Shown here piece by piece: positions 35,001-64,000 of a stretch of DNA of 64,000 nt. The translations under genes and the position numbers were made by a program. Each line of letters starts with the position of its first letter. Position 1 is the first letter of the stretch. Location of the stretch: contig CAUYUJ010014362.1 in assembly GCA_963575745.1 (NCBI GenBank), positions 347,922 to 411,921 of the forward strand, written 5' to 3'. The stretch is from Prorocentrum cordatum. Lineage: Eukaryota > Sar > Dinophyceae > Prorocentrales > Prorocentraceae. Below the pieces are notes generated by a model. It worked only from the letters and a program-made list of their open reading frames with translations, was not told the DNA's origin and searched no databases.

Positions 35001-35138
35001 GTCGGAGTCCGCGACTGCGGCGCAGTACTCGCCCTCTTCGACACCCTCGCCGCCCCCTCCCTCACCAGCCTTGCCCTCGTCGCCCTCTGAGTCCTCCCCG
35101 CCAGCGCCCGCAGCGTCCTCACCGGTGGGGTCCCCGCC

Positions 35139-43435: not shown

Positions 43436-43490
43436 TCTCACTCAGACTCACTCACAGTCACATTCACTCACACTCACACTCTCTCATGAT

Positions 43491-44586: not shown

Positions 44587-44709
44587 GCGAGCGAGAGAGA
44601 GAGAGAGCGAGGAAGAGAGAGAGAGAGAGAGGAAGATAGAGAGAGAGAGAAGGAGAGAAAGAGAGAGAGAGAGAGCAAGAGAGAGAGAGAGAGGAAGCGA
44701 GAGAGAGGG

Positions 44710-44750
<41 letters not shown>

Positions 44751-44757
44751 GAGAGAG
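44408..44757 (-). repeat. (TC)n 3' tail of LINE 2, full copy
   Basis: On the plus strand a GAGAGA tract with a (GCGAGC)n patch at about 44505-44590. It directly follows the 3' UTR of the minus-strand element, so it reads as a (TC)n tail on the element strand. The second copy has the same arrangement at 60963-61220. Confidence 0.85.
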
Positions 44758-44761
44758 CGGA

Positions 44762-45127
44762 CAAGTAGGCGGACCAGGGTCCGTCCGCGAGGCGCACTGC
44801 GGTGCGACAACTCGCAAAACACTATTTGCGGCGGTGCAGCCTTTAGATACGAGGGCGGGCAACAAAAAAAAAACCCTCCCCCGGCGCAGTGCGACAGACG
44901 CTACAGACGGCGGACAGACGGTGATGATCTCACCTGTCAGACCGCGTAAAGAAAGAGGCCCCAACAAGAAAGGCGACGTGCTGACACGTGGCTAGGCGGC
45001 TTGGCAGACCGCCAGTTGGGCCCTTGGCCGCAAAGCGGCGCGCAGTGACGGGGCACCCCCCGCCCCCACGCCCTGACACCGTGGACGCGGAGCCACGCGT
45101 ACACACGGGCAGGCAGAGAGGAGGAGA
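44762..45127 (-). other. 3' UTR of LINE 2, full copy
   Basis: Closely similar to 61229-61589. Shared phrases include GGACAAGTAGGCGGACCAGG next to the tail, AACTCGCAA..CACTATTTGCGG, and GCCACGCGTACACACGGGC near the coding end. One clear difference is an A9 run near 44863-44871, where the other copy has three A. Confidence 0.8.
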
Positions 45128-45967
45128 TTAGCGCGGGGCACCAGGTGGAGCGCCGCGGAACGATGACAGCAAAGCTTGGATGGTGAGTGACGGCACGGCA
45201 CCATCGGGCGAGGGCGTGAGCAGCTCGGCGAAGGCTCGCCCGGCGCTGTGGAGGCGCTGGAGTAGAGGGCCTTGGCGAGCTTGGGCGGCGGCCAGGTCCG
45301 CGGCGAGAGCAACGCACCTCTGCTGGAGGACAGCCATAGCCTGGGACAGCTCGGTTTCGCGGTCGGTGAGGGGTGGCTGCTCAGTGCCAGCGGCCGAGGG
45401 CCTCGAGACAGAGGCGAGGTCCTCGGTACGCCTGTCCAGATGGTGGACTAGCGTAGTGCGGCACCCTGTACGCTGTCGTCCGTCACCCTTGAAAGGTGAC
45501 TGGAGGGGAACACGCGACCCCAGCGCTGGAGCCGCTAGGGCCACGCCCCGAGAGGTCGGGAGAGCCGCATCCTCTCGCTCAGCAACGATGGAAGCGTGGA
45601 CGGGGCGCGAGGGCCTGTCTGGTTCAGTGCCCTGCGGGGGGGCTGAAGCCGCCCCCGCGGGCTGCCGCTGGTGGGGGGGCGGAGTGGTCTGCGCGGTGGG
45701 ACCAATCATGATGCCGCGCAAGGGCTCTGAGGTCGGCCGCGTAGAAGGGTGGCGTCTCGGTAGGGCGGCATGGTCGGCAGCGTGGGGTGTCGGCGGTGCG
45801 TCGTCTATGCCACTCAGTCCGCGGGGGTCACCCAGGTCGTCGTCGGCGTCTTGGCGGTGGCCGAAATCATCGTATGGGGGCGATGTCGCTCTCGGGGACG
45901 GAGTCGCGGTAGGCGTCGAGAGGTTGCCCGACGGGGCAGGGTTTTCGCTGACTTGTCCGTCGTCCAA
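45128..45967 (-). CDS. C-terminal tail ORF of LINE 2 polyprotein
   Basis: 279-codon frame ending at TAA (45128-45130), matching the last third of the intact ORF at 61590-64000. It is Pro/Ala/Thr-rich and disordered in its first 180 residues. Residues about 205-260 (DRETELSQAMAVLQQRC...QGPLLQRLHSAG) have a heptad pattern suggesting a coiled coil. In this copy it is cut off from the RNase H part by a frameshift near 46133. Two hairpins of the shared-core family lie in it. Confidence 0.55.
   Translation of the reverse strand: MDDGQVSENPAPSGNLSTPTATPSPRATSPPYDDFGHRQDADDDLGDPRGLSGIDDAPPTPHAADHAALPRRHPSTRPTSEPLRGIMIGPTAQTTPPPHQRQPAGAASAPPQGTEPDRPSRPVHASIVAEREDAALPTSRGVALAAPALGSRVPLQSPFKGDGRQRTGCRTTLVHHLDRRTEDLASVSRPSAAGTEQPPLTDRETELSQAMAVLQQRCVALAADLAAAQARQGPLLQRLHSAGRAFAELLTPSPDGAVPSLTIQALLSSFRGAPPGAPR
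45518..45540 (-). repeat. Core hairpin H1
   Basis: Arms CCCCAG and CTAGGG around CGCTGGAGCCG (45524-45534). One C/A mismatch on the plus strand is G-U on the element strand. Homologous to H15 at 61977. Confidence 0.7.
45631..45661 (-). repeat. Core hairpin H2
   Basis: Ten-bp arms CCTGCGGGGG and CCCCCGCGGG (9 of 10 paired) around GGCTGAAGCCG (45641-45651). Homologous to H16. Confidence 0.8.
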
Positions 45968-46131
45968 AGCGTCCGATCCCCCACCGAAGCTGAACAGGTC
46001 GTCCTCCTGTTCGTCAGCGTCTTGAAGGTGAGCGGCGTTGTCATGTGGGTGCGAGGCCGCTCTCAGTGGCGGAGTCGAGGGCGACGTGCGGGTGCCCGAC
46101 GGGGCAAGGTTGGCGCTGGCTGGCCCGTCGC

Positions 46132-47205
46132 CTAGAAGTCAAGGCCCCCGCCAAAGCCGAACGGGTCGTCCTCCTGTTCGTCGAATATCGCCCGTTGGGC
46201 CTCGGCCCAGAGCTCGTCCGGGTTCTGTGGGATGTCTGGTCCAGCCGCAGGTGGTGCCTGGTCAGACAGCAGGGGGGTTGGTTCCATTTTGTTGAGTTCC
46301 GCAGCTGTAAACCCAGCCCTGCGGTGTGGGAGGGGGAGTGTGCGGTGTCTACGCTCGTAGATGGCGACAGCGACTCCATGAAGCACGGTCGCTTGGCGAT
46401 GTCGTGTTTTGGCAGCTTCGACAATGTCGTCTGGAAGGTTGTGGGTACGTGCCGCCGTTGTGGCGAGGGCGTCAGCCTGACGATTGAACTCCTCCGCGAT
46501 GGCCCGATGAGCCCGAGGTCGATGCCCATGTCTCCCAGGTGGCTTGCGATTTTCTCGACGCGGAACATGTTGGGCTTGGCCATGACGCATCGGTGGATCT
46601 TTTCCCAGAGCTCCACGTGCGTGCCCTGCGGTGGTGAGTGTCCGTCGATGATACTTTGGAAACCATCGACCACCGCCTGGTTGTCCACGAAAACGTGTAC
46701 GGGCCGTTCAGCACATGCTGTGAGGTGGACAATGGCGAGGGTCTCCGCAAGCTGGGCGTTCTGCGTAATGCCGTGAACGCGTGCACTGTAGTTCATGCGG
46801 TGGTCGATGCCGTAGTAGACGCCGTAGCCCGCTCGTGCTAGCAATGGGATGGCTTGGTTGGTGCATGCACCGTCCGTGGCAGCGTAGACCCATGTCCAAC
46901 CAGTGTCGTGGTCAAGGTAGGTGGTGTAGGTGTCCCGGGCTGAAGCCGCAGGATCTCCCTCAGGGGGGGGCCGCGGCATGGGCTGTGGCAGCGGGTCCCT
47001 CGCGAGGTCGGCCTGCAGGTCAAGGAGGGCTGGGTCTTCGTCGAAGAGCCCGCAGTGTCTTGTGCGCGGCGGGAGACGGGCCCACTGGTCGTCACTGATG
47101 AGGGTGGTGAGAGGGAGTCTTTCTCGGGCCCAGCACTTGCAGTCGCGAACAGTGTGCTCCTGAGTTTCCTCTTCCTCGTCGCAGTATCGGCAGATGGGGC
47201 TGGGT
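46132..47205 (-). pseudogene. Broken zinc finger-RNase H region of LINE 2
   Basis: The sequence matches the open RNase H region of the second copy but needs at least three frame changes: near 47204 (GGGTCAG here, GGGATCAG in the other copy), near 46501 (GATGGCCCG versus GATGGGCCCG), and near 46133 (one base lost, creating TAG). Visible pieces: YAATDGACTNQ (first Asp strand), AETLAIVHL (Glu helix), VHVFVDNQAVVDG (third Asp), and, in another frame, AEEFNRQADALAT (C-terminal Asp). This is an RNase H type I domain that should remove RNA from the hybrid. Broken, or affected by sequencing indels. Confidence 0.75.
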
Positions 47206-50200
47206 CAGCAGACGTGTTTGATCGGGATCGTCGCTGTTGGGTGTGGCCCCCGCCCGACAGGTAGTTCAGGAGGAGCGCCAGCTGCCAGGCAGTGCATTTG
47301 GCTGCTCCTTTCGTTCGGGCGAGCCACGTGCTGGCGAAGAGGTCGAGGCCCTGTCTGACAGAGGCAAGGTATCCAAGGTCGTGACGCCGTGGCTTGATCC
47401 TCCTCAGAAAGGCTCTGCGTTGTGTGGCCCGCAGCATGTGAAGGAAGGCGTTTTGGGGTAAGTTCAGCCAACTGATCTGGCAGCCCCAGTCGTCGTACAT
47501 GATGCCAAATGTGGGCCAGGTCCAACGGAGCTGCTGGAGCGTCTGGACAAGACGTCCGACAGGTCCTCCCCCAAACAGGGTCTGAACGTGGTGTTGGAGA
47601 TCCCTGACGAGACCGCAGAGTGTAGCGTCGCGATTAACCTGTCGCCGCAGACACAGGAAAACGTCACGCTGCGTGATGGCGTCAATCTCCAGGGCGTGTC
47701 CTGGGACGCACACGGCCATGAGAGTCCAAAACTCGACCCACTTGTTTCCCTTGGGGCGGATCGCCGCCTTAAGGGCATGGTTGTAGGCAGTTTTGACGGG
47801 GCCTGATGGGGCTTGAATGTCGGTGCCCGTGGTACAGACGCTGGCAGCTAGGGAACGGGCGTGCCGCGCCTTAATAAGCATCGGCGATGGGAGCTTGCCA
47901 ATGCGCGGCAGGCGACTAGTCGCCCTCCGAACACGGGCGTCAGCGGTGGCCGTGAGGTTAAGCGCGGCTGGAGCCGGCGCTGCCTCGGCGTTGATGTAGA
48001 TCCCGACGAGCTTGAAGGAGTCGACCACGCGTAAGGGCCGTTCCGCCAGAGTGAGCTGGGTAACGGCGGCGTGAAGCTCGTCGGTGAGCGCCCACCCCGC
48101 CACTTTGCCAGGGTGAATGCGTTGACCTGAAAATCGATCAAACTTGGCGGTTTCATCAAGAGAATTCTGCAACTCAGGCGCGGTGTGAGTAGTGGAGTTG
48201 CTGTCGTCAACAAAGGTAGTGCTGAGTGATCGCGGAACGTATCGATGCTGTCTCTTGGTCCACACACACATGAGCAGCTTAATGTCGTCCAGGGACCAAG
48301 AGCTTCCCTGGAGGTGACCGTTTGTCCTGGCCAATTCCTTAGAGTACGCTCCGTTCATGCGGATGTAGCGTTTGTGGCGACTGTAGAAGTTTCTGCGGAC
48401 AGTAACGATGTCTTGGGGGCACCCCGCGTGAAGCGCAAGGTTAAGGCAGATGTCCGTGATGAGGTAGTCGAAGCACTTCTGTCGGTCAAGGGCAGCCCCA
48501 GCTAAGGGAAGGAGTAAGGCCCTGGCGTGTTCGATGCGCAGGGCAAGAGAGGTGCTGACGTCCCCAATGGTAGCTTTGGGGACAGCGCCAAAGCTCGTGG
48601 CGTGGGTCCATCCTTTCCGCCAGTCCGTGAGACTGCGGTAAGCTGGCGCTTCCCACGCATACATCCAAACGGAAAGCACCGAGAGAAGTCGTTGGTCCGT
48701 TGGGAGTTCGCCTCGGCCTTTTCGGAGGCACGGGTTTGGCACATGAAGGAGGGGTTCTGGGAGGGTGCCAGTGCGTTGCATAGCGCGTAAGACGCTGGCG
48801 AAGAGGCGAAGGATGTCGTCGGGTAACTCCTTAGCCTCCTTAGTAGTCCAGCCGTCCAGTCCCCCCGCACGGCGCGGTGAACGGGTGCGAATAAAGTGGA
48901 TGAGTTGGTCGTCGGTGAGGTGGAAAGGGGTAGCTGGTGATGGCGTAGGCAGCTCTTGTCGGTACTCGACGTAGAAGTCAGCCCACGTCGGCATGGCTTC
49001 GGCGTCATGTCCTGCACGGGCGCGGTACCTGCCCAAGATGGGCTCCCAGGTGTCGACCATGAGCTTAAGCATGTCTTTGGTAATAGCAACAATGGCGTTG
49101 GCAGGGAGAATGTCGGGGACTTGTGCAGGTGGTGGTTCACAAGTGTGGTCTTCGTCGTTGTCCGTGTCGGGCGAACTACCGTCGCTGGGGCTGAAGCCGC
49201 CAGCTTCGGTGTCAGCGTCGCTATCGTCCGGGCTAGCTTTGTCAGGTTTGAAGGCGTTGGTGTCGCAGTGGAGTTGCGTATCGTCAGGTGTGGTAGGCGT
49301 GCGGAGATACGCCGTGGGCGAGCTGTCAGCAGCCCGCGCGTATATGGCCGCCTTTCGCCCGCTTGGCTCGCGGACGCCCTCAGCCCATATCTTGATGCGT
49401 TCAGCTTTGGCACGGTTCGCACGTCGCGCCAGCTCTAGGTCGAGGTTTTGGATCAAACCGTCAAGGTGCTCTCCGTGAGGTGCTGGCTCGTCGGGGGTCC
49501 AGGCCTCGGGGAAATCTAGGAGAACCGTGGGGCGCAGCTTGTGACATAGGAGGCGGGCCGCGGTCCACGTGCAGTCGATGCGCTGCGCTAGGTACGGCGG
49601 GATGGCACGGCAGTCTAAATGATGGTGCTGTCCGATGAAGCGAAGCTCACAGAGTTGCCGATGGAGCTTGCGCAGTCGGTTCATGCGTATCGTGGAAGCT
49701 CCGTAGGTGGGGAAGGCACGGGGGGCAACTGGTCGCTCCTCGAACATGGGCGTGAGCCCGTGCATGGTGGGGGGCTTCTTTTTTGGGTGGTCAGGCGGTG
49801 GAGGTGGCAGGTCGCGCAGACGGGTGAGATGGTACTCATGACTGGCCTCGTTAGCCAGGGCGAACATGCGTTCCACGTCGTCGCGTGCGTCGGCCAGCTC
49901 CATGCGGTCCTGATATCGCCCAGCGATGAGGGTCCCTAAAGCCTGCAGTTCGTGACCCTCGTGAGCTCCATCGTTGGGAGGGTAGGGCGTGGGGGCAAGA
50001 AGGCGTCGGGCCGTATGGTCGAGGCGACTGAGGTCAAGCGTGACCTGCAGGCCAACATGGGACTTCGCTGGCAAGTCGCGCAGATAGCAGAAGTCGGAGA
50101 CAAGGGATCGCGCCGCTTGGTTGGCAATGATATAATCGATGCGCGAAGTGCGGGGGCACTTGGTGACGCGGTCCCAGTCAGGGATATTGCCGTATGTGTG

Positions 50201-50299
50201 CATGGTGTGGTCTGGTGTGCCCTCAGCGACGTTAAACCATCCGTGCTGCAACATGTGCAGCAGGTGTGGATTGTCGTCGATGTTCGTGTTGGCGTCCAT
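46838..50299 (-). CDS. LINE 2 endonuclease C-terminus and reverse transcriptase
   Basis: 1153-codon frame; the same frame is open upstream to about 50.5 kb and carries endonuclease sequence there (IYIASLYGVAGGD, FICMDANTNIDD). Residues 55-90 (SRIDYIIANQ...SHVGLQV) are the end of the AP endonuclease. The reverse transcriptase follows: QRLLSVLSVWMYAWEAP near 510, motif A DRQKCFDYL near 604, TNGHLQGSSWS near 665 as motif B, and the catalytic TTFVDDSN near 695 as motif C. A thumb-like region with RWTWPTFGIMYDDWG is near 940. The last 120 codons, below about 47205, are out of frame: the zinc finger CRYC...H...C seen in the second copy is lost by a 1-nt indel. Confidence 0.85.
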   Translation of the reverse strand: MDANTNIDDNPHLLHMLQHGWFNVAEGTPDHTMHTYGNIPDWDRVTKCPRTSRIDYIIANQAARSLVSDFCYLRDLPAKSHVGLQVTLDLSRLDHTARRLLAPTPYPPNDGAHEGHELQALGTLIAGRYQDRMELADARDDVERMFALANEASHEYHLTRLRDLPPPPPDHPKKKPPTMHGLTPMFEERPVAPRAFPTYGASTIRMNRLRKLHRQLCELRFIGQHHHLDCRAIPPYLAQRIDCTWTAARLLCHKLRPTVLLDFPEAWTPDEPAPHGEHLDGLIQNLDLELARRANRAKAERIKIWAEGVREPSGRKAAIYARAADSSPTAYLRTPTTPDDTQLHCDTNAFKPDKASPDDSDADTEAGGFSPSDGSSPDTDNDEDHTCEPPPAQVPDILPANAIVAITKDMLKLMVDTWEPILGRYRARAGHDAEAMPTWADFYVEYRQELPTPSPATPFHLTDDQLIHFIRTRSPRRAGGLDGWTTKEAKELPDDILRLFASVLRAMQRTGTLPEPLLHVPNPCLRKGRGELPTDQRLLSVLSVWMYAWEAPAYRSLTDWRKGWTHATSFGAVPKATIGDVSTSLALRIEHARALLLPLAGAALDRQKCFDYLITDICLNLALHAGCPQDIVTVRRNFYSRHKRYIRMNGAYSKELARTNGHLQGSSWSLDDIKLLMCVWTKRQHRYVPRSLSTTFVDDSNSTTHTAPELQNSLDETAKFDRFSGQRIHPGKVAGWALTDELHAAVTQLTLAERPLRVVDSFKLVGIYINAEAAPAPAALNLTATADARVRRATSRLPRIGKLPSPMLIKARHARSLAASVCTTGTDIQAPSGPVKTAYNHALKAAIRPKGNKWVEFWTLMAVCVPGHALEIDAITQRDVFLCLRRQVNRDATLCGLVRDLQHHVQTLFGGGPVGRLVQTLQQLRWTWPTFGIMYDDWGCQISWLNLPQNAFLHMLRATQRRAFLRRIKPRRHDLGYLASVRQGLDLFASTWLARTKGAAKCTAWQLALLLNYLSGGGHTQQRRSRSNTSADPAPSADTATRKRKLRSTLFATASAGPEKDSLSPPSSVTTSGPVSRRAQDTAGSSTKTQPSLTCRPTSRGTRCHSPCRGPPLREILRLQPGTPTPPTLTTTLVGHGSTLPRTVHAPTKPSHC
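46933..46953 (-). repeat. Core hairpin H3
   Basis: Arms TCCCG and CAGGA around GGCTGAAGCCG (46938-46948). One C/A on the plus strand is G-U on the element strand. Its homologue H17 has perfect arms. Confidence 0.75.
47961..47981 (-). repeat. Core hairpin H4
   Basis: Perfect arms AGCGC and GCGCT around GGCTGGAGCCG (47966-47976), inside the RT ORF. Confidence 0.75.
49184..49204 (-). repeat. Core hairpin H5
   Basis: Perfect arms GCTGG and CCAGC around GGCTGAAGCCG (49189-49199). The element frame reads GGFSPS here. Confidence 0.8.
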
Positions 50300-50397
50300 G
50301 CAGATGAAATACGGGGCTGAGCCGACCCTTGCGGCGGCGCAGTCAGCGAGCCGAAAAAGATCTGTGCTGTCTCCTCCAGCAACCCCGTAGAGGCTCG

Positions 50398-51666
50398 CTA
50401 TGTAGATCCCAGCGGGCCCGTGGTTGATTCGTCGCCGCCTGCGGCGGTGCTGAGTGCAGAGCGGGAGAAAGGCCTCGTGCCATCTTTTCTTGGCCTTGAG
50501 GGCGACGATACAGGGCGCAGTGTCGTCGACAGTGGAGTCGACAATGGCATCCTAGAGAGGATGGCGACCCCTCCCGAGGCGCCAGTGTTGCCCACGACGG
50601 TGTGGTCTGTGCCGCCGTGGGCAGCTCTGCGCTGGGCTCGCGCCAGATCCAGGTCAGGTCCAAGACTGGCGTGGAATCCCCCGTGGTGTGGATTGGCGGC
50701 GCTGGTAGCGATGGCTTGTCTGGTCGGCTTGGCATGTCGGGTCTCCTGCAGTGCTATGACTGCGGCGTTGTGGTCGACACCAAGAGCGGTGATGGTTGGC
50801 CAGTTCGCTGAGAGACTGGTGATGTTTAGGCTGACGAGGTGTATGGAGCGACCTGGCCCGTCTCCATCGGTGGAGCAGGGGTTTGCACGCCCCGCACGGT
50901 GTAGGTCAGCCTGACCCTCGCCCAGGTAGAAGGCTTGGCCACAGTAGGAGCTCATGGCGTTCCTATGGATTAGCTTGACCGGGGCTGAAGCCGCCGTCAG
51001 GCCAGAAGTATAGGCGAGACATGGTCGGCACTGCGCCAGGGGGGGGTCATAAACGTCAATGAAACTGTCTCGAAAAATCCTCCTCACTCCTGTGCCATAG
51101 GGGACGAGGGGAGGAGAGGTGAGACGGTAGCAGAGGGAGAGGGAGGCGACTCCTCGATCCGTCCTGCCGAACACAAAAGCAAAAGCGAACCAGCGGCGGC
51201 GGCTCGGCGCGGCAGCGGCACAACGCACGCGCATATACTGCGCACGCGACACCGCTGGTCCGTCCTGCGGTGGCGCGCCCGCCCCGTCAGTATCTTGATG
51301 AGCAGCCTCTGGTGGAACAGCTCGAGCAGCGCGGTCGGTGGCCTGGCGCTGGGCCTCGTCCATGCCCGCTGCCGTGAGGCCCGCGTTGCGGACAGGGCTG
51401 ATTCCCCGCGGGGCCGCCGCTGCCGCGGCAGCGGCTGAGGTGGCGGGGGCTCCGCCCCGACTCTGAGGTGAGAGCGGTGAGCCACCGCCGAAACCCGCCG
51501 CAAGGTCCTTGACACGGTACTTGTTCTTGAACGGGTCGACGGTCGGCGCCTCGTCGATGGGGACGATCACGCGGGTGGGCAGCGGCGGCTCGTGGTCCGT
51601 GGACGGCGTCGGCTCGAGGTCGACCTGGCCAGGTTCGATGACGCGGGCACCGAAGCGTGGCACCAC
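50398..51666 (-). CDS. LINE 2 AP endonuclease, N-terminal part
   Basis: 422-codon frame. The first 200 residues are low-complexity Ala/Pro/Arg-rich. From about residue 270, SIHLVSLNITSLSANWPTI is the first strand of the AP endonuclease fold, AAVIALQETRH (about 300) carries the conserved Gln-Glu-Thr of the active site, and GASGGVAILSRMPL (about 365) is the next conserved strand. A frameshift near 50525 moves the rest of the endonuclease into the RT frame. The domain would nick target DNA for target-primed reverse transcription. The start at 51666 is arbitrary: the frame is open a little further upstream, while the 2171-codon ORF ends at 51567 in another frame. Confidence 0.7.
   Translation of the reverse strand: MVPRFGARVIEPGQVDLEPTPSTDHEPPLPTRVIVPIDEAPTVDPFKNKYRVKDLAAGFGGGSPLSPQSRGGAPATSAAAAAAAAPRGISPVRNAGLTAAGMDEAQRQATDRAARAVPPEAAHQDTDGAGAPPQDGPAVSRAQYMRVRCAAAAPSRRRWFAFAFVFGRTDRGVASLSLCYRLTSPPLVPYGTGVRRIFRDSFIDVYDPPLAQCRPCLAYTSGLTAASAPVKLIHRNAMSSYCGQAFYLGEGQADLHRAGRANPCSTDGDGPGRSIHLVSLNITSLSANWPTITALGVDHNAAVIALQETRHAKPTRQAIATSAANPHHGGFHASLGPDLDLARAQRRAAHGGTDHTVVGNTGASGGVAILSRMPLSTPLSTTLRPVSSPSRPRKDGTRPFSRSALSTAAGGDESTTGPLGST
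50976..50999 (-). repeat. Core hairpin H6
   Basis: Arms TGACCGG and CCGTCA (six pairs, one bulged C) around GGCTGAAGCCG (50983-50993), inside the endonuclease ORF in a different reading phase from H5. Confidence 0.75.
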
Positions 51667-57600: not shown

Positions 57601-58082
57601 CTGGCGCACAGGGGGGCAATGAGACCCGTGGGACTATAGCGGGGCACGACAGCGGGGCTGAAGCCGCCACTGTGTGCATGGCCTTGGTCAGCGGCCCCGT
57701 CGAGGATGTGCTGCACGACGGTCGAGGCCACGCTGAGGGTGGACTGCGATGCATGTGTCGTAGTTGACGAGGGCGTGCATGCACTCGCGATGGCGCCCAA
57801 CGGTCCCTTGCCGCACGGACCCGCGGCGGCGGTGCTGTTCACGATCGGGTCCAAAATGGTGCAATGATCGTACTTGTAGATGCTGTCATCGTAAAGGTGC
57901 GCCTGTTGGGGCGCACCGCCTGAAGACGGGTGTGCTCCAGCTAGCGAGGGGAGGGCCAGGCTGCAGGCAAGGCGCCGCATGATGGCGAGGCCAGGCGGGC
58001 GGCGCGAGCGATGAGCCAAAAGCTGCATGTCAGCACGCGTCCTCAAATACCCCTGAATGCTCATGTACATTGCAACAATCAC
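51567..58082 (-). CDS. 2171-codon ORF of LINE 2, function unknown; possible ART-like domain
   Basis: Very long open frame between ORF1-like genes and the endonuclease. The frame starts at GTG; the first ATG is at 58068-58070. Residues near 620 (CGCLICLFVATYAIVIAM) and near 720 (GGVVCGLLLVGAKLLA) look like membrane-spanning segments. Residues about 990-1110 have an ADP-ribosyltransferase-like pattern: TVFWHGTRGDL, then GRTYVSVHPSLAAWYA, then GARLIYPRVLGLLIR. This is only a motif resemblance. Residues about 1485-1520 are Cys-rich (CLQCRFQCCQYC...CPDC) and may bind zinc. The last 350 residues are Pro/Ala/Arg-rich, likely disordered. Six shared-core hairpins lie in it. No counterpart is visible in the partial copy because the window ends first. 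Confidence 0.6.
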   Translation of the reverse strand: MIVAMYMSIQGYLRTRADMQLLAHRSRRPPGLAIMRRLACSLALPSLAGAHPSSGGAPQQAHLYDDSIYKYDHCTILDPIVNSTAAAGPCGKGPLGAIASACTPSSTTTHASQSTLSVASTVVQHILDGAADQGHAHSGGFSPAVVPRYSPTGLIAPLCARGEPEEDPAFWHLMMIRARLIPCAAAWAPGEDHQDVFWAWLEDCAPYILATLHLPQYDHFFQEDSEEKNDALRQRTAIDMCEDIWHRAGPDRQRTNRNLTRIQGSREYSTRYFGLLLEYQGARAQLVGTEAFTAPLPSYLSRAHALLPRGLPPPDQDALAYLADAILHHPTDMQPLVEAELAAAPMEPLNPPPPAGLAQHATGEQVADDPISWLLQHIAASDISNIPQDSFHASDDISNISLGSFHASDDSQDDMETQDRDGMTPPGDTAQHDRDSEPHSEHTPSHSSPPNDSAQTDPCAQLNDAEGATVADATSHATASPAQASPRSGGFSPAAELAGPGHLQTAGGSTTPRTPVCRVNGTDSNLSFIDHWQADTDNDPIDDANPDASGTYDAQHSAAASRHCGCLICLFVATYAIVIAMPYKDQLDGYLPTPSRDPSYRQRRRRQAAAPGPSVPTTPRRTTAYNVTSALWGTLMWASAKLKDIVPGGASAVGVGLGGVLKWASGKLGAIATGGVVCGLLLVGAKLLAQGAVGHVGARICVRALDSSTAQWCLRCCQPIRRPRDEATYTMPRTLAGEHEDQHVHSLRHPLLQEHYAAAVAAAVADVTTATTAAIVEVTAAVSRASSVTPRSTSPSLRYGSKSGAVYDNPPTHEDATAHASDAEAREPRERTRDRPWSIFRHADARGSSSDTDTQPPRRRARYASPARPQAPLGPGTPHLALKPPTRNLRNTIQRDPAAPVPPTSILNALYQNGFALGNSGVSTEDIKDALRLHDHPRFTHDLTLQALGPWTDIMQRPPNRLTWVLEDSGGNTGETIFPYLTWDLRKPTTDAPTVFWHGTRGDLAARLAASGGPLLPGPRRETKGRTGTNVGRTYVSVHPSLAAWYAVPPHPPYSLEDVTLAWGPIALWMCEATQPPSGENWHNFVKGEAHGARLIYPRVLGLLIRMDWCAPTEAASRCRALSQVFGMGDCAHALHIAGYDHPDLREAAEAHDQEASTRRRLGIAAAWPPPQALYSQEAARAWAKQHYDTEAATRADPNQPRPRVSLRKLQLDPQPLIDLVYTGLQAVPVRGHPDARESRPSGSSPGAEPGPPRTYQSGAALAHSPDRSSTTPGDDNRRMPSLIRAAAALARGHARPRRSASRASRQSGENSTSDYSDIETWEHIVSEVEPTAYHVLAFHVRDVRARVNAPGIEVWLDPGDHHDGAYLPWGTTVMGHRVIDPEVVGRDGWVILHHDHGDTTTKLWAPTQVHVKADDTWRTVMVPADMGPQWIERHADDARLPAEVVRTTGQSWFADVWPLWDRPRPHPDDPGTNEQALPPLPGRWSCLQCRFQCCQYCAARRNTQLGTSGQPACPDCALSGLRAPMDWSTDYSCNSWTCAFSTDNRDSDTCCLSSRCPHPPSPHSLLDVRATGMPPHILARQFGNAPAHHDLKEPPRAPSGPGGEPPQPGQAGYQGQWYLPPRPRRVPRQGLPDGTRRPPWFTGTGMPEDPSPDQPLWREGYVLFGPHQALKEDFTFNKTVRRPYSLTITNMHRDRVTVRTVCESIAECIHTTRTRWRDVVLYWDAEGGPGPQALDYDMRLCDAMVSRATTEAELNHDRSNRGSFCLYGPAHQRAVNITALPEPQNIDYMEHVRRYSPVGETYPDHAFEHVYQGWRRPVVPTVLPDTRPLSRADQQRYQQHQQRIQQRDQRDAGQPSTPRNRSPARVPTGGNTVYGGGAAYHRGPIGARPAAVGAAASSYGHAPHARVHPAASGHSRALVQSPPRATSPVPGSTRAWGHYPGRHDSTPSNQPAVLTPAASAQGAAPSRGRTGRPEGWRDANVRAWQPRQHTPPPNVAASLRPAQAKPAPPVRERQPLVPLVLTYTQAHHSASPRHSDGSAHHISPRPDAVDPDQATATAEGGAGGPRQPAHHPARRRSDPRAGRTPSALMPRRPRHATATRAGASRAAGPAAATAHARPQGAPRARRLARLRLMAEPPKWCHASVPASSNLARSTSSRRRPRTTSRRCPPA
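52194..52216 (-). repeat. Core hairpin H7
   Basis: Perfect arms CCCCTG and CAGGGG around GGCTGAAGCCG (52200-52210). Confidence 0.85.
53270..53300 (-). repeat. Core hairpin H8, compensated variant
   Basis: Seven C (53270-53276) pair with seven G (53294-53300), plus G77/C93. The inner part is GCC-TGAA-GGC (53280-53289) instead of GGC-TGAA-GCC: both sides of the inner stem are swapped while the loop is kept. Possibly a member of the family, possibly chance. Confidence 0.45.
54340..54364 (-). repeat. Core hairpin H9
   Basis: Perfect 7-bp arms GCCCCAG and CTGGGGC around GGCTGGAGCCG (54347-54357). Confidence 0.85.
56599..56623 (-). repeat. Core hairpin H10
   Basis: Arms GCAGCGG and CCACTGC (six pairs plus one C/A, which is G-U on the element strand) around GGCTGAAGCCG (56606-56616). 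Confidence 0.8.
57644..57677 (-). repeat. Core hairpin H11
   Basis: Inner arms ACAGCGG and CCACTGT around GGCTGAAGCCG (57656-57666). After a bulged G the stem continues with GCAC pairing to GTGC, giving the longest stem of the set. Confidence 0.85.
57911..57935 (-). repeat. Core hairpin H12, variant core
   Basis: Seven-bp arms GCGCACC and GGTGTGC (one G-T pair on the plus strand) around GCCTGAAGACG (57918-57928), the same variant core as H14. Confidence 0.65.
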
Positions 58083-58383
58083 GCCCCCTGCAAGACTGCG
58101 GGTGTCCCTACACCAGATATCTTGCGCGTGCTGCTGCCAAAACAGACATGAGGTGATAAGAAAGAGATACGACGCGAAGAGGGAAGAGATGCCTCTGAAG
58201 GCGCTTCCTCGGAGGGCTGAGGCGGGCTCTCTGAGGCACCTTCAATAGGGTTCCTGGGTGGCCCGACCCTTGTCTTTGCCTTTGTCAGCCCCTGGGGGCC
58301 CCGTCCCTGGGGTGACCTGGCCTGGCTGGTCGATCCACCCGCAGACAGCCACGGGATCAGCGGCCGCTGCAGCTTCCTCCTTC

Positions 58384-58827
58384 TTAGTTGCCAGAGTGGC
58401 CACTTGTGGCAGGTGGAGTGCCCCCCGTGAGGTGCCCGAGGAGGGCCTGGATGTCGCCGCGCAGTGCAGCAGCTTCGGCGGTTGCCGTCTGTTGCTGGGT
58501 GACGACGGTGGCAAGCCCCCGTTCCAACCCCGAGACGTGCTCCGTGAGTGTGGCCTGGGAGGAGAGAACGCCCGCAAGCTGGACCTGCATGTTATCCACC
58601 GTGTTGGCTAGCAGCTCGTGCTGTTGTTCCATGTGCTGGATGCGGGTCGTGGCAGCATCTGGCGGTTGAGAGGCCGATGCGAATCGCTCACCGAAGGTGT
58701 TGAGTTCGTGGGAGGCCTCGCTGTATTCATCGCCTGATGAGAGGATCTCGACGTCCTCGGCGTCGCCTGGTACTTCGGCGGCTGTGGCAGCGTCGCCTTC
58801 GGAGTGGCCCCCGCCTTCTGCCGCCAC
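58384..58827 (-). CDS. Coiled-coil ORF1-like segment of LINE 2
   Basis: 147-codon frame that begins internally: the same frame is open upstream to the UAA at 58963-58965. The acidic N-terminus (EDVEILSSGDEYSEASHELN) is followed by a long heptad-patterned helix (HMEQQHELLANTVDNMQVQL..., to near residue 130), typical of ORF1 coiled coils that trimerise. Ends at UAA 58384-58386. It shares one reading frame with the two ORFs upstream, separated from them only by stop codons. Confidence 0.55.
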   Translation of the reverse strand: MAAEGGGHSEGDAATAAEVPGDAEDVEILSSGDEYSEASHELNTFGERFASASQPPDAATTRIQHMEQQHELLANTVDNMQVQLAGVLSSQATLTEHVSGLERGLATVVTQQQTATAEAAALRGDIQALLGHLTGGTPPATSGHSGN

Positions 58828-58962
58828 CGTGCCATGCCGGGAGTCATGACCACCTGCTCCTGGGGCGGCCGTTTGTTCAGCGGCTCCGCCCGTGCCGTGC
58901 GGGGGTGCAGAGGAGCTGCGGCCTGGGGCGCAGTGTGACCTTGCGTGCGGCGGGGCGTCACG

Positions 58963-59706
58963 TTACCCACTGGAGGATCGGTGGCGCTTGGCTAAAGGCT
59001 CCTCCTTGGGGATCAGGAGCGGTGCGACGCCTTTGCCTTTGGGCGTGGCAGTCATGAGGTCGTGGAGATAAGGGCTCTGGGCCGCTTTGGTGAGGAGTGT
59101 GCCGGTGGCGGGGCTAAAGCCGCCACCACGGGCTGGCGGCGTCACAGGCTCTGTAATGGTGGTAGGCGTGACGATGGTGACGTTGTCCCGCTTCGGCACT
59201 ACCTCAGCCAACGGGGCCTCGGCGATGCTCCACGGGATGGGGCACCCCGCAACTTGTACCGTGTATGTGAGTGGGGGCCGATGGGCACGCACTAAGGCAA
59301 ACTGGGCCGCAGTGGCTGGGTCCCAGGCGGTGTGGTAGACCTCACAGTCCCATTTGACGGACGGGCCCGTGAGAGTCTTGGCGAGCTGGGTCAGCGTGGC
59401 GTGGCGTGCCGCAATGCCAGTGATGCGGTAGCGCGCCTTGGCGAGGGAAGCCTCGCAGCCGCGGATGCTGACGGCCGCAGCCCTGGCGGCGTCTGACCCC
59501 CGTGGAACACGGATCCCCAGTAAGCCTGACTTGCCGTGCCTGACGACTCCCAGGGCCTTGAACTCCACCGACTTCTGGAACGCATCTGCCATCGTGATGG
59601 GATGGTCCTCAGGGAACCACACGGTCTGATACTTGTCAGCGGTGGGCTCGTCAGCACCTCCGTTGCTGAGGTCGTAGGTAGCGCCGAGTTGCCCTGATCC
59701 CGCCAA
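58963..59706 (-). CDS. ORF1-like segment 2 of LINE 2
   Basis: 247-codon frame whose listed start is a TTG; the same frame is open upstream to the UAA at 59818-59820, so the true segment is up to 284 codons. It contains WFPEDHPITMADAFQKSVEF and IRGCEASLAKARYRITGI, a mixed alpha/beta pattern, then WDCEVYHTAWDP and a VPWSIAEAPLAEVVPKRD-like tail; family not recognised. By position it is an RNA-binding ORF1 component. Hairpin H13 lies near its end. Ends at UAA 58963-58965. Confidence 0.5.
   Translation of the reverse strand: MAGSGQLGATYDLSNGGADEPTADKYQTVWFPEDHPITMADAFQKSVEFKALGVVRHGKSGLLGIRVPRGSDAARAAAVSIRGCEASLAKARYRITGIAARHATLTQLAKTLTGPSVKWDCEVYHTAWDPATAAQFALVRAHRPPLTYTVQVAGCPIPWSIAEAPLAEVVPKRDNVTIVTPTTITEPVTPPARGGGFSPATGTLLTKAAQSPYLHDLMTATPKGKGVAPLLIPKEEPLAKRHRSSSG
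59105..59129 (-). repeat. Core hairpin H13
   Basis: Arms GTGGCGG and CCACCAC (six pairs plus one C/A, G-U on the element strand) around GGCTAAAGCCG (59112-59122). Confidence 0.75.
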
Positions 59707-59817
59707 GACCTTGTCGACCGCTTGGAGACTGACGCCGAAGGTGGCGGCCAGGGACCTCTTCCCGACGCCCGATCCAAACCTGCCTAGGCTTTTGCAGGGT
59801 TCAAGGATGGTGACGGC

Positions 59818-60615
59818 TTAAAAGTTGCCGTGGAAGAGGGCCTTGAAGGTGTCCTGGAGCTGACTATCGAGCTCCTGGCGGCGAGCGTCTTTCTTGGACT
59901 CCCTGTGCTTTTGGTTTTGGCGCGCCTTGTCCTGTGGAGCGGATTCCCCTCGAAAAGGGCCCTTGGTGCGTGGACCACCGTTCACGGGGGCACCTCCCGA
60001 GAACTGGTCCTCGAAGGCCTGATGCATGGAGGGGACTGCGGCAATGGCTTCGGTTTCATGTATGGTCGCCCGAATCCAGCATACGTGGTCGGCAGGGTCG
60101 ATGGTGGCGACGGCTACTTTTTCCGTGCATGCGACCTCCTTGGTGCCCAGCTGGTACACGGTCACGGGGACGTGCGTGTGGACCACTTTGGGCGCCTTGG
60201 GGTGACGCTTCAGCACAGGGACGGCGAGCTCGGTGCCGACGTAGTTGTCGTTTTTTGGGCCCATGACAGCAATCGCGAGCTGACCCGTGGTTCGCTTGCC
60301 CTGCTCGAGGTGGTGTTGCAGCAGCCGTTCACCGCTCTCGTAGTCGTGGAGGCTGATTCTGGGCTTGTACGTCTTGCCGTCGTCAGGAGATGTGGGTTCG
60401 GCGAGGACAGGGACCTTCCAAAAGGCCGGGTCCAAGGCGATGAATTGGGTGTCCGCAGCCTGAAGACGTGCGGAACCCGCTGGTGGGTGTGATGTGTCAC
60501 CGCCAATGCGCTTAGGCTTGCTGCGCTGGTGATGGTCAAGCGTGTAGCTGATCTGGTTGGTGGCACACATGCGGATCAGGGCGCTGCCGAGCTTCTTCGT
60601 GTTGGACTTGTGCAT
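59818..60615 (-). CDS. ORF1-like segment 1 of LINE 2
   Basis: 265 codons from an internal Met. In the same frame an ATG at 60808-60810 opens a 37-codon basic leader (MAPKKPDRRRSSKQ...), interrupted by UAG at 60697-60699. Beyond the UAG the frame continues (QAGSDRPTAAYNGLAEL...) into this ORF. It contains SLHDYESGERLLQHHLEQGKR and HVCWIRATIHETEAIA; the C-terminus is Lys/Arg/Gln-rich. Family not recognised. Likely first protein of the element by position. Ends at UAA 59818-59820, after which the frame stays open into the next segment. Confidence 0.55.
   Translation of the reverse strand: MHKSNTKKLGSALIRMCATNQISYTLDHHQRSKPKRIGGDTSHPPAGSARLQAADTQFIALDPAFWKVPVLAEPTSPDDGKTYKPRISLHDYESGERLLQHHLEQGKRTTGQLAIAVMGPKNDNYVGTELAVPVLKRHPKAPKVVHTHVPVTVYQLGTKEVACTEKVAVATIDPADHVCWIRATIHETEAIAAVPSMHQAFEDQFSGGAPVNGGPRTKGPFRGESAPQDKARQNQKHRESKKDARRQELDSQLQDTFKALFHGNF
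60452..60474 (-). repeat. Core hairpin H14, variant core
   Basis: Perfect arms TCCGCA and TGCGGA around GCCTGAAGACG (60458-60468), identical in core to H12. Confidence 0.65.
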
Positions 60616-60810
60616 GTCATACGTTGCCTGGAGCTCGTCCGCGTTCAGTTCGGCAAGCCCGTTGTATGCGGCCGTGGGGCGGTCAGACCCCGCTTGCTAG
60701 AACGCTGCGATGCAGTCCTGCTTGCGTTGGAGGAGAGATCCTTCAGCCGCAGGACGGGAACTCGGAGGCTGCTTGGAAGAGCGACGGCGGTCCGGCTTCT
60801 TGGGGGCCAT

Positions 60811-60962
60811 TGCTGCGGGCGCTCGGGTGAGGAGAGGTGACGCGAATCAGTAGGGTCCTGCGGGGACCCCTCCGGTCTCGCGAGGCCTGGGAGTCTGGCT
60901 CCGAGGCGGGGCGCTTCGCGTCGCGGCTGCGGTCTGAGTGCTGGGCACTCTCGAGCCGAGAC
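60811..60962 (-). other. Presumed 5' UTR of LINE 2 full copy
   Basis: GC-rich stretch between the ATG at 60808-60810 and the (TC)n tail of the upstream copy. It contains the palindromic word GGTCCTGCGGGGACC (60854-60868). No promoter motif can be named. Confidence 0.45.
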
Positions 60963-61034
<72 letters not shown>

Positions 61035-61220
61035 GGAGGGGGAGTTGAGAGAGGAGACAGGCGAGAGAAAGAGAGAAGAGAGAAGAGAGAGAGAGAGAGA
61101 GAAGAGAGAGAGAAGAGAGAAGAGAGAAGAGAGAAGAGAGAGAGAGAGAGATAGAAGAGAGAGAGAGAGAGGAAGAGAGAGAGAGAGAGAGAGAAAGTGG
61201 AGAGAGAGGGGGGGGGGGAG
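60963..61220 (-). repeat. (TC)n 3' tail of LINE 2, second copy
   Basis: Plus-strand GAGAGA tract interrupted by GAAGAGAGAAGAGA words and a G9 run at about 61209-61218. Counterpart of 44408-44757. Confidence 0.85.
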
Positions 61221-61228
61221 AGATCGGA

Positions 61229-61589
61229 CAAGTAGGCGGACCAGGGTCCGTCCGCGAGGCGCACTGCGGTGCGACAACTCGCAAGCACTATTTGCGGCGG
61301 TGCAGCCTTAAGATACGAGGGCGGGCAACAAAACCCCCTCCCCCGGCGCAGTGCGACTGACGCTACAGACGGCGGACAGACGATGAAGATCTCACCTGAC
61401 AGACCGCGTGAGGTAAAAGGCCCCCACAAGAAAGGCGACGTGCTGGCACGTGGCTAGGCGGCTTGGCGGACCGCCAGTTGGGCGCTTGGCCGCTAAGCGG
61501 CGCGCAGTGACGGGGCACCCCCCGCCCCCACGCCCTGACACCGCGGACGCGGAGCCACGCGTACACACGGGCAGGCAGAAAGGAGGAGA
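61229..61589 (-). other. 3' UTR of LINE 2, second copy
   Basis: Closely similar to 44762-45127, with scattered substitutions and shorter A runs. Confidence 0.8.
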
Positions 61590-64000
61590 TTAGCGCGGGG
61601 CACCAGGTGGAGCGCCGCGGACCGATGACAACATAGCTTGGATGTTGAGTGACGGCACGACACCATCGGGCGAGGTCGTGAGCAGCTCGGCGAAGGCTCG
61701 CCCAGCGCTGTGGAGGCGCTGGAGTAGAGGACCTTGACGCGCTTGGGCAGCGGCGAGGTCCGCGGCGAGAGCTAAGCACCTCTGCTGAAGGGCAGCCATA
61801 GCCTGTGACAGCTCGGTTTCACGGTCGGTGAGAGGTGGCTGCTCAGTGACATCCGCCGAGGATCTCGAGACAGAGGCGAGGTCCTCGGTACGCCTGTCCA
61901 GGTGGGCAAGCGGCGTGCGGGACCCTGAACGCTGACGTCCGTCACCGTTAAAAGGTGACTGGAGGGGCTGGCGCGACCCCAGGGCTGGAGCCGCTAGGGC
62001 CGCGCCCCGAGAGGTCAGGGGAGCCGCTTCCTCTCGCTCAGCAACGGAGGAAGCGTGGGTGGGGCACGCGGGCCTGTCTGGTTTAGTACCCTGCGGGGGG
62101 GCTGAAGCCGCCCCCGCGGGTCGCTGACGATGGGAAGGTGAAGTGGTATGCACGGTGGGGCCAGTCGTGATGCCGTGCAAGGCCGCTGAGGTCGGTCGCG
62201 TAGAGGGTTGGTGGCTCGGTGGGGCGGCATGGTCGGCAGCGTGTGGTGTCGGCGGTGCGTCCTTAATGCCACCCAATCCTCGGGGGGCACTCGGGTCGTG
62301 GTCGGCGTCCTGGCGGTGACCGATATCATCGCATGTGGGCGTTAACGCTCTTGGGGACGGCGTCGCAGTAGGGTTTGCGAGGTTTCCCGACGGGGCGGGG
62401 TTTTCGTTGGCTGGTCCGTCGTCCAAAGCGTCCGATCCCCCACCGAGGCTGAAAAGGTCATCGTCCTGCTCATCAGCGTCTTGAAAAGGAACGGCGTTGT
62501 CCTGTGGGTGGGCTGACGCACTCAATGGCGGAGTCGGGGGCGCCGTGCGGGTGCCCGCCGGGGCAGGGTTGGCGCTGGCTGACTCGTCGCCCAGGAAGTC
62601 CAAACCTCCACCAAAGCCGAACGGGTCGTCCTCCTGTTCGTCGAATAACCCCCGTTTGGCCTCGGCCCAGAGCTCGTCGGGGTTTTGTGGGATGTCTGGT
62701 CCAGCCGCGGGTGGAGCCTGGTCAGACAGCAGGGGATTTGGTTCCATTTTGTTTAGTTCCGCAGCAGTGAACCCAGCCCTGCGGTGTGGGAGAGGAAGAG
62801 TACGATGTCTCCGCTCGTAGATGGCAACAGCGACTCCATGGAGCACGGTCGCTTGGCGGTGTCGTGCTTTGGCAGCTTCAACGATGTCGTCTGGAAGGTT
62901 ATGAGTACGTGCCGCCGCTGTGGCGAGGGCGTCAGCCTGACGATTGAACTCCTCCGCGATGGGCCCGATGAGCCCGAGGTCGATGCCCGTGTCGCCCTGG
63001 TGGCTATCGACTTTCTCTACGCGGAACATGTTTGGCTTGGCCATGACACATCGGTGGACCTTTTCCCAGAACTCCACGTGCGTGCCCTGCGGAGGTGAGT
63101 GTCCGTCGATGATCCTTTGGAAGCCGTCGACCACCGCCTGGTTGTCCACGAAGACGTGTACGGGCCGTTCAGCACATGCCGTGAGGTGAACAATGGCGAG
63201 GGTCTCCGCAAGCTGTGCGTTCTGCGTGATGCCGTGAACGCGCGCACTGTAGTTCATGCGGTGGTCGATGCCGTAGTAGACGCCGTAGCCCGCTCTTGCA
63301 AGCAAAGGGATGGCTTGGTTGGTGCATGCGCCGTCCGTGGCCGCGTAGACCCATGTCCAACAAGTGTCGTGGTCGAGGTAAGTGGTGTAGGAGTCCTGGG
63401 CTGAAGCCGCAGGATCTCCCTCAGGCGGGGGCCGCGGTATGGGTTGAGGTAGCGGGTCCCTCGCGAGGTCGGCTTGCAGATCGAGGAGGGCTGGGTCCAC
63501 ATCGAAGAGCCCGCAATGTCTTGTGTGCGGAGGAAGACGGGCCCACTGCTCGTCACTGATGAGGGTGGTGAGAGGGACTCTTTCACGGGCCCAGCACTTG
63601 CAGTCACGCACAGTGTGCTCCTGAGTTTCCTCTTCCTCATCACAGTAACGGCAAATAGGGCTGGGATCAGCGGACGTATTTGATCGAGAACGTCGCTGTT
63701 GGGTGTGGTCCCCGCCCGACAGGTAGTTTAAGAGGAGCGCCAGCTGCCATGCGTTGCATTTGGCAGCTCCTTTGGTGCGAGCGAGCCACGTGCTGGCGAA
63801 AAGGTCGAGGCCCTGTCTGACCGAAGCGAGGTGACCAAGGTCATGACGCCGTGGCTTGATTTTTCTGAGAAAGGCTCTGCGTTGCGAGGCGCGCAGCATG
63901 TGGAGGAAGGCGTTTTGGGGAAGGTTCAGCCAACTGATCTGACAACCCCAGTCGTCGTACATGGTGCCAAATGTGGGCCAAGTCCAACGGAGCTGCTGAA
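61590..64000 (-). CDS. LINE 2 polyprotein C-terminus: RT end, zinc finger, RNase H, tail (partial)
   Basis: Open from the window edge to TAA at 61590; the true start is outside. Residues counted from MYDDWG at 63962: the RT thumb/connection region comes first; CRYCDEEEETQEHTVRDC near 110 is a C-x2-C-x9-H-x4-C zinc finger common at the end of LINE RTs; RNase H type I follows with Asp in YAATDGACT (about 207), Glu in LAETLAI (about 250), Asp in VFVDNQAVVDG (about 275), and HQGDTGIDLG...EEFNRQADALA as the C-terminal active-site segment. The last 430 residues are Pro/Ala-rich, then a predicted coiled coil (ETELSQAMAALQQRC...). All four RNase H acidic residues are present, so this copy could be active. 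Confidence 0.85.
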   Translation of the reverse strand, partial: QQLRWTWPTFGTMYDDWGCQISWLNLPQNAFLHMLRASQRRAFLRKIKPRRHDLGHLASVRQGLDLFASTWLARTKGAAKCNAWQLALLLNYLSGGDHTQQRRSRSNTSADPSPICRYCDEEEETQEHTVRDCKCWARERVPLTTLISDEQWARLPPHTRHCGLFDVDPALLDLQADLARDPLPQPIPRPPPEGDPAASAQDSYTTYLDHDTCWTWVYAATDGACTNQAIPLLARAGYGVYYGIDHRMNYSARVHGITQNAQLAETLAIVHLTACAERPVHVFVDNQAVVDGFQRIIDGHSPPQGTHVEFWEKVHRCVMAKPNMFRVEKVDSHQGDTGIDLGLIGPIAEEFNRQADALATAAARTHNLPDDIVEAAKARHRQATVLHGVAVAIYERRHRTLPLPHRRAGFTAAELNKMEPNPLLSDQAPPAAGPDIPQNPDELWAEAKRGLFDEQEDDPFGFGGGLDFLGDESASANPAPAGTRTAPPTPPLSASAHPQDNAVPFQDADEQDDDLFSLGGGSDALDDGPANENPAPSGNLANPTATPSPRALTPTCDDIGHRQDADHDPSAPRGLGGIKDAPPTPHAADHAAPPSHQPSTRPTSAALHGITTGPTVHTTSPSHRQRPAGAASAPPQGTKPDRPACPTHASSVAEREEAAPLTSRGAALAAPALGSRQPLQSPFNGDGRQRSGSRTPLAHLDRRTEDLASVSRSSADVTEQPPLTDRETELSQAMAALQQRCLALAADLAAAQARQGPLLQRLHSAGRAFAELLTTSPDGVVPSLNIQAMLSSVRGAPPGAPR
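61977..61999 (-). repeat. Core hairpin H15
   Basis: Arms CCCCAG and CTAGGG around GGCTGGAGCCG (61983-61993). Homologue of H1, here with the standard first core base. Confidence 0.75.
62090..62120 (-). repeat. Core hairpin H16
   Basis: Arms CCTGCGGGGG and CCCCCGCGGG around GGCTGAAGCCG (62100-62110). Homologue of H2. Confidence 0.8.
63394..63414 (-). repeat. Core hairpin H17
   Basis: Perfect arms TCCTG and CAGGA around GGCTGAAGCCG (63399-63409). Homologue of H3. Confidence 0.8.

Follow-up and report, generated by a model that had tools for sequence, protein, structure and literature searches.

In single-stranded RNA phages of the MS2 type, a short hairpin is bound at a single strong site and, more weakly, at several others dispersed along the same RNA (PMC8472981). 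In stringent long interspersed nuclear elements (LINEs) a stem-loop of the 3′ tail is recognised by ORF2, and recognition of LINE RNA has been ascribed to such a 3′-end signal (PMC4176376). Here, a family of hairpins is described that is repeated through a LINE of the dinoflagellate Prorocentrum cordatum, found in a 64,000-nucleotide stretch of the assembly GCA_963575745.1 (contig CAUYUJ010014362.1, positions 347,922 to 411,921, forward strand; hereafter the window), and that is also carried by a shorter partner element. The structure of the hairpins and the selection acting on them are well supported, and their fairly even spacing and sharing between the two elements suggest that they are docking sites by which the jumping machinery would recognise the RNA. 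Two other known systems are relevant for comparison: HeT-A/TART of Drosophila, in which an element without reverse transcriptase (RT) depends on an RT-bearing partner and head-to-tail arrays are formed, and Kibi and Koshi, which are LINEs targeted to TC repeats. Recognition of LINE RNA has also been ascribed to cis preference.

On the sense RNA each hairpin unit consists of an arm, a bulged C, the strand G-N-C, a UYYA loop, the strand G-N′-C and the second arm. The core first noticed, GGCTGAAGCCG, is the plus-strand view of CGGCTTCAGCC. The bulge is A rather than C at three partner-element sites. The loops across sites are UUCA, UCCA and UUUA, with another loop in three single rows among the aligned copies, and the loop with the next base reads UYYAG at almost every site. 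The alignment of 23 distinct sites (15 from the LINE, 1 extra LINE site and 7 from the partner, whose eighth site duplicated another and was not counted) displayed 3 bp between bulge and loop in every case, with inner pair 1 always G-C and inner pair 3 always C-G, and a middle pair that covaried (GC 13, UG 5, CG 4, UA 1). Arm sequences varied from site to site with pairing retained. Standard pairs made up 92.2% of the pair cells against 60.0% after shuffling (0 of 500 shuffles as high), and pairing fell to 33-50% on sliding by 1-3 columns; these figures are partly given by construction, as several sites were found by scans requiring arms or parts of the core. When 26 sites were folded in a 131-nt context, the mean predicted pair probability was 0.84 on the sense strand, compared with 0.58 on the antisense. 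In this folding one decayed site, at 45534, lacked the inner stem, and the sites at 50993 and L050:6648 made part of the arm only.

The window contains 18 hairpin units, all on the minus (element-sense) strand and all located in 45516-63417. A covariance model made from 22 hairpins and scored unfiltered over the full 64 kb on both strands gave 17 matches, scoring between 27.7 and 38.3 bits; the decayed site reached 21.0 bits and the next best hit 14.3. As 15 of the 18 window hairpins were in the training set, the information lies in this gap to the background. By allowing at most one mismatch, the core was found 13 times against 2.76 expected, a number not reached in any of 100 shuffles. The core pattern enclosed by an arm of at least five contiguous pairs occurred 14 times on the element strand of 44700-64000, 0 times on the other strand, and 0 times in 1-44699. 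In 500 shuffles the mean number of such units was 0.002 and the maximum 1, and a chance origin of the units is rejected by these shuffle tests.

The sequence-only reading of the window, made earlier without database searches, had proposed the shuffle comparison and had listed 16 places, all of which carry the core or the variants that it named with pairing arms around them. Its statements that the units have one orientation (18 of 18 on the minus strand) and that none is located in 1-44 kb (none by the core-plus-arm scan or the covariance model) were likewise borne out. The list itself was incomplete, as the hairpins at 53290 and 55471 were detected only by a relaxed scan. Arms of at least 5 bp were described for every site, which is correct for most; the core at 50983 (hairpin 50993) has only 3 contiguous pairs, or 6 with one bulged base. 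The core was described as fixed, which again applies to most sites and fails at 45524 (hairpin 45534), where it is decayed and the inner stem broken.

From the LINE 5′ end, the first hairpin in the window is at 60468 (60452..60474), followed by those at 59122 (59105..59129), 57928 (57911..57935; core CGTCTTCAGGC, middle pair U-G), 57666 (57649..57673), 56616 (56599..56623), 55471 (55456..55476; core CGCCTTTAGGC), 54357 (54340..54364; arms GCCCCAG/CTGGGGC, exact in 11 of 11 aligned rows) and 53290 (53272..53298; core CGCCTTCAGGC, middle pair C-G). Further downstream are the hairpins at 52210 (52194..52216; arms CCCCTG/CAGGGG), 50993 (50976..50999; one bulged base in the arm), 49199 (49184..49204), 47976 (47961..47981; loop UCCA), 46948 (46933..46953) and 45651 (45634..45658; arms GCGGGGG/CCCCCGC, unchanged in 13 aligned rows). 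The decayed core CGGCTCCAGCG belongs to the hairpin at 45534 (45516..45542; 21.0 bits), which is the last of LINE copy 1, about 780 nt short of its 3′ end, and which has an intact core in 10 of 11 aligned rows. In LINE copy 2 the hairpins at 61993 (61970..62006), 62110 (62093..62117) and 63409 (63394..63414) are the equivalents of 45534, 45651 and 46948, respectively. All of these sites were matched by the covariance model, which detected no further hairpin in the 49.2-51.0 kb gap.

A fairer test than the pairing figures of the 23 sites is a comparison of cores found by the core alone. At least five contiguous arm pairs were present at 8 of the 9 exact cores in the window against 1 of 22 cores elsewhere in the genome (25 were fetched from the first 100 listed places, and 3 that were element copies were omitted). 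The genome, about 4.15 Gbp (PMC10449503), was searched as an assembly of 4.13 Gb in 21875 contigs. The sole armed outside core (L037) is at L053 4356-4382 (C48:617863), has 7 arm pairs and is probably due to chance; a translation of its surroundings looks, as judged by eye, like the RT of another LINE. The 9 kb around this core contained no second hairpin above noise, and a host-wide hairpin is rejected on these two observations.

The hairpins of LINE copy 1 are fairly regularly spaced. With doublets merged, the gaps range from 1028 to 1794 nt (mean 1245) with a coefficient of variation (CV) of 0.17 against 0.68 for random sets, none of 20000 being as even; the merging of the two doublets was decided after the positions had been seen, and the random sets were given the same rule. 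Without merging, the CV is 0.38 against 0.91 at random (P 0.0002).

The carrier is a 16.2-kb LINE with endonuclease, RT and RNase H, the copies of which lie head to tail in (TC)n. Two copies are present on the minus strand of the window. Copy 1, of about 16.2 kb, has approximate ends at 44757..60964, drawn from direct repeats and from comparison of the ends with the partner and other copies. The 3′ part of copy 2 (61217..64000) is cut by the window end and lies head to tail with copy 1. The direct-repeat period is 16.46 kb. With regard to long terminal repeats, the long-range repeats found have this tandem period. The 5′ end near 60964 is preceded by (CT)n and the 3′ end near 44757 runs into (CT)n, which points to insertion into TC repeats, and such insertion would explain the tandem arrays.

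The hairpins sit in the coding sequence of the LINE, roughly one per 1.2 kb. From the 5′ end, the minus strand contains a 5′ ORF region (58387..60696), ORF1 as an open frame of 2224 aa with no function assigned (51570..58241), an open frame with an APE-like endonuclease (50401..51924; PF03372, E 6.5e-06) and an open frame with a weak RT match (46841..50551; PF00078, E 0.1, below cut-off); in copy 2 an open frame with RNase H is found (61593..63998; PF00075, E 2.2e-07). The window copy has stops at 59818-59820 and at 58963-58965; in that region 9 further copies were aligned, and each of them has a sense codon at both places. The single database relative found for the RT region, a 1722-aa protein 28% identical over 86%, has PF00078. 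With endonuclease, RT and RNase H predicted from a single strand, the element falls among the LINEs, the RT match itself being below cut-off. Copies with long frames exist in the genome. The LINE 5′-terminal 18-mer has 908 exact occurrences in the genome (control 0). In an RT search of the genome, 131 of 8565 first-look candidates were scored and all were 99-100% identical, with open frames of up to 5505 aa, divergent families being beyond its reach; no RT relative was confirmed in viral contigs and none was found in phages. A LINE subfamily 84-89% identical has kept 7 of 7 hairpins, all sense, in the 6.3 kb read.

In alignments of element copies, the substitution divergence was 0.95% in the hairpins against a mean of 4.9% in the flanks, and the hairpins were the less divergent at 15 of 15 sites, in agreement with the expectation of the sequence-only reading that the core be more conserved than its surroundings. 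These values cover 25 hairpin columns, a 60-nt flank on each side and 10-21 rows per site, with substitutions only; 23 alignments in which the hairpin was unspanned or held a gap or insertion were dropped, 16 of them at 56616. In ORF1 codon position 3 diverged by 0.91% over the 56 sites within hairpins and by 16.4% over the 2168 sites elsewhere; for the RT frame the values were 0.5% (21 sites) and 10.4%. The hairpins use codon phases 0, 1 and 2, phase 0 being clear at one site.

The partner element is about 7.5 kb long and carries up to 8 hairpins in the same sense orientation as in the LINE. In the partner at C2:406.5-413.6 kb only the first 35-40 nt and the last 400-530 nt are common with the LINE, and beyond these ends partner DNA and the LINE match only in a segment of about 36 nt at one hairpin. 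A tblastn search of seven LINE frames against seven partner stretches gave 0 matches at E 1e-3, and the best weak matches (E 0.004 and up) overlie the shared hairpin. Neither RT nor endonuclease was detected in the partner by tblastn with the LINE frames or by Pfam on seven partner frames, for which no family was found at E 0.1. The most complete copy holds 8 hairpins and has its own frames of 986 and 1239 aa, and the partner may well encode proteins, possibly a hairpin binder. Since the partner carries the hairpins though it is otherwise different, the hairpins are expected to act in cis as RNA.

A partner hairpin searched as a 22-mer with at most one mismatch occurred 277 times in the genome (control 0), and among the 100 listed places the matches were mostly paired 128-129 nt apart. 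Four partner stretches (21.5 kb) displayed 20 hairpins at 26-38 bits, followed by a next best of 14.0, and 20 of 20 were sense; the sites L050:2624 and 3376 had no counterpart in the training set. The GCGGGGG hairpin at window position 45651 and at L050 4912/5026 stands beside a second hairpin 114-117 nt off, in dissimilar surroundings. Twenty of the 908 5′ ends, taken from the first 100 listed, comprised 17 LINE-type starts, one of them broken by a T-rich stretch, and 3 in which the LINE 5′ leader is fused to a partner-like body. One such chimera, partner B, read for 7 kb, contained 6 hairpins, all sense. The leader in these chimeric partners (L064, L067 and L078 on C188, C352 and C738) is about 160 nt, and the leader variant of one is also found on the divergent LINE start L079, which suggests that the partner re-acquires the leaders of current LINEs.

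The origin and role of the hairpins may be depicted as follows. They are sense-only, fairly even in spacing, element-specific, conserved and kept by the partner, with a fixed core and an arm of any sequence that pairs, which is what would be expected of a repeated protein-binding site. The best explanation is that they are cis-acting RNA hairpins of the dinoflagellate LINE and its partner serving a multi-site, packaging-like assembly of a ribonucleoprotein (RNP) through an RNA-binding protein, to which we assign a probability of about 0.5. We infer that a protein made by the LINE or the partner would read the fixed part, namely the bulge, the two fixed pairs and the U and A of the loop, and would require of the arm a helix of any sequence. 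Many such proteins along one RNA could assemble a compact RNP or particle, which would deliver the correct RNA to the RT. RNP assembly would account best for the number, spacing and sharing of the hairpins, a host reader being the main rival. A more elaborate version, to be held more tentatively and with the odds somewhat against it, is a LINE with a virus-like packaging code, in which an operator hairpin repeated fairly evenly through 16 kb of coding RNA would be read by a LINE or partner protein, a particle built, and the RT-less partner selected to keep the hairpin. Of the two possibilities raised by the sequence-only reading, a repeated RNA structure, whether for packaging, translation control, processing or priming, is supported by the pairing, the sense-only orientation and the conservation at 15 of 15 sites.

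Several observations weigh against assembly by an element protein. No binding protein was identified among the element proteins by Pfam and structure searches. ORF1 has no Pfam family above cut-off and no solved-structure match better than E 0.39, and the fold model of a 236-aa ORF1 piece was unusable (pLDDT 39.8); it gave nothing on the ORF1 stretch 54570-55277 (minus strand), which may resemble ADP-ribosyltransferase-like folds. A host protein could fit equally as the reader. The doublet-merging rule behind the spacing figure was chosen post hoc, and the spacing in the partner is uneven (585-1622 nt apart from doublets). Position 3 is not frozen in the hairpin at 59122 (11.1% inside, 8 sites, against 13.5% outside), and in the RT and RNase H frames some position-1/2 sites diverge more within hairpins than outside, an excess to which changes seen in the window copy alone contribute in part. 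The invariant G-C and C-G pairs and the loop U and A are partly built in, as the scans that found several sites required them, and the pairs changed on both sides among the 23 sites (8) are no more than in shuffles (7.4). The hairpins at 57928 and L050:1124 are not favoured by the in-context folding. Covariation of the arms, proposed earlier as a check, is seen across sites in the pairing figures and is nearly absent within them: the inner arm is close to invariant, and 27 changed pair cells divide into 15 still paired and 12 broken; seven arm pairs were counted, and 17 of the 27 changes fall on the outermost one. Two-sided compensation occurs only at two outer pairs, 57666 pair 7 and 59122 pair 8, the latter outside 59105..59129 (C-G 7, G-C 2, unpaired 3 in 12 rows).

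The other possibility raised earlier, a mobile palindromic unit that either brings its inverted flanks along or generates them, has bacterial palindromic elements as its comparison class and could explain why 56616 and 57666 have 23 identical nt in common between different flanks, and why the LINE hairpin 45651 and partner hairpins are alike over about 36 nt in unrelated surroundings. It is improbable in view of the fixed orientation, with all units sense and a single armed core among the 22 outside, and of the presence/absence pattern, in which no discrete inserted segment is seen. In copies L025 and L027 an extra hairpin lies at a distance of 37 nt from 56616; its middle pair is U-A and it scores 29.2 and 31.6 bits. 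Six other aligned copies differ at this place by substitutions; one of the six is rearranged there, another has a deletion just downstream, and either a gain or a loss may lie behind the difference. The only loss, that of 55471 in L014, was by a deletion extending beyond the hairpin, and no clean empty site was found among the aligned copies. Least probable of all is a repeated protein motif, GGFSPA, with incidentally palindromic codons. SGGFSPA is indeed encoded at 56616 and 57666, but the use of three codon phases and the frozen third positions in the ORF1 hairpins contradict this explanation, and the partner cores are partly different.

The hairpins might instead act while the RNA is reverse transcribed, as points of pausing, template switching or priming, or act on the single-stranded cDNA. 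This would agree with the sense-only orientation and with retention by the partner, which presumably shares the RT of the LINE; their distribution over the full length of the element, rather than at its ends, and the better folding of the sense strand than of the antisense make it no more credible than a mobile unit. Scarcely different in standing, and if anything a little weaker, are RNA processing sites, cleavage sites or splice acceptors formed by loop and stem: UYYAG, present at almost every site, resembles the splice acceptor consensus, and the spacing of about 1.2 kb would yield even fragments. Against this, open frames of 2940 and 2486 aa in fetched copies pass uninterrupted through the hairpins and codon position 3 is freest outside them, which points to translation of uncut RNA. 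The main rival is a host protein that binds the hairpins and would help a very long RNA to leave the nucleus, be transported, stay stable or evade decay, both elements having evolved many sites for it. Repeated hairpins for export or localisation are known in the constitutive transport element (CTE) and the ASH1 zip codes, and the partner retains hairpins without detectable LINE protein sequence. The rarity of armed cores outside the element (1 of 22 sampled) speaks against a host reader, although the sample says little on host mRNAs, and we consider this rival unlikely, while ranking it well above the other alternatives.

Some further features were noticed in the window and the genome. A stretch at 30804-37715 (minus strand, 64-74% GC) contains long open frames with a Helitron-like N-terminal domain (PF14214) and DUF6570 (PF20209), and is probably a Helitron adjoining the LINE array. 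Directly downstream of the LINE copy 3′ end, at 43483-44238, a 152-bp repeat is found in 4-5 head-to-tail units. The exact 21-nt dinoflagellate spliced leader has 14218 occurrences in the genome DNA (reversed control 0), which shows the host to be a dinoflagellate. These copies are likely relics of retroposed mRNAs, and relics of the dinoflagellate spliced leader (DinoSL) occur upstream of genes (PMC11453091).

A comparison of the window with Rfam 15 gave 0 matches above gathering score, and among the papers listed in searches on dinoflagellate LINEs, coding-region LINE hairpins and bulged-tetraloop or spaced hairpins none described such an array, as judged by titles and abstract starts. The earlier statement that no family like this had been described is upheld to that extent, and, as far as Rfam and literature titles and abstracts reach, the hairpin array is a categorically new kind of feature. 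A spaced array of hairpins with free arms, shared with a partner, would constitute a second, distributed signal of RNA identity, and how a LINE picks its own RNA would become directly testable with a 27-nt ligand.

Compared with Kibi and Koshi, the LINE is alike in its insertion in a (TC)n microsatellite, with no clade kinship implied; we know of no hairpin array reported for them. With HeT-A/TART it shares the pairing of an RT-less with an RT-bearing element and the head-to-tail arrays, whereas the arrays here are in (TC)n and a telomeric placement is not implied; no repeated hairpins are, to our knowledge, known in HeT-A/TART. The likeness to stringent LINEs consists in a hairpin of the LINE RNA that is thought to mark the RNA and in a 3′ tail common to LINE and partner, but here many hairpins are distributed across the coding sequence in place of one 3′-tail stem-loop. 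The operator of MS2-type phages has an unpaired base on the 5′ side, 2 bp from bulge to loop, and a tetraloop with a pyrimidine at position 3 and A at position 4. No coat-like domain was found in the LINE and partner frames scanned with Pfam. The LINE hairpin is alike in the 5′-side bulge, the short upper stem and the pyrimidine and A in these tetraloop positions, and differs in having 3 bp, not 2, between bulge and loop, a bulge that is mostly C, and the loop UYYA. In place of one strong and several weaker sites, about 15 near-perfect copies are fairly regularly spaced along a 16-kb LINE as candidate operators. If the packaging reading is true, a principle familiar from RNA phages would here be put to a new use, and a link would be drawn from retrotransposons to RNA viruses with their dispersed packaging signals.

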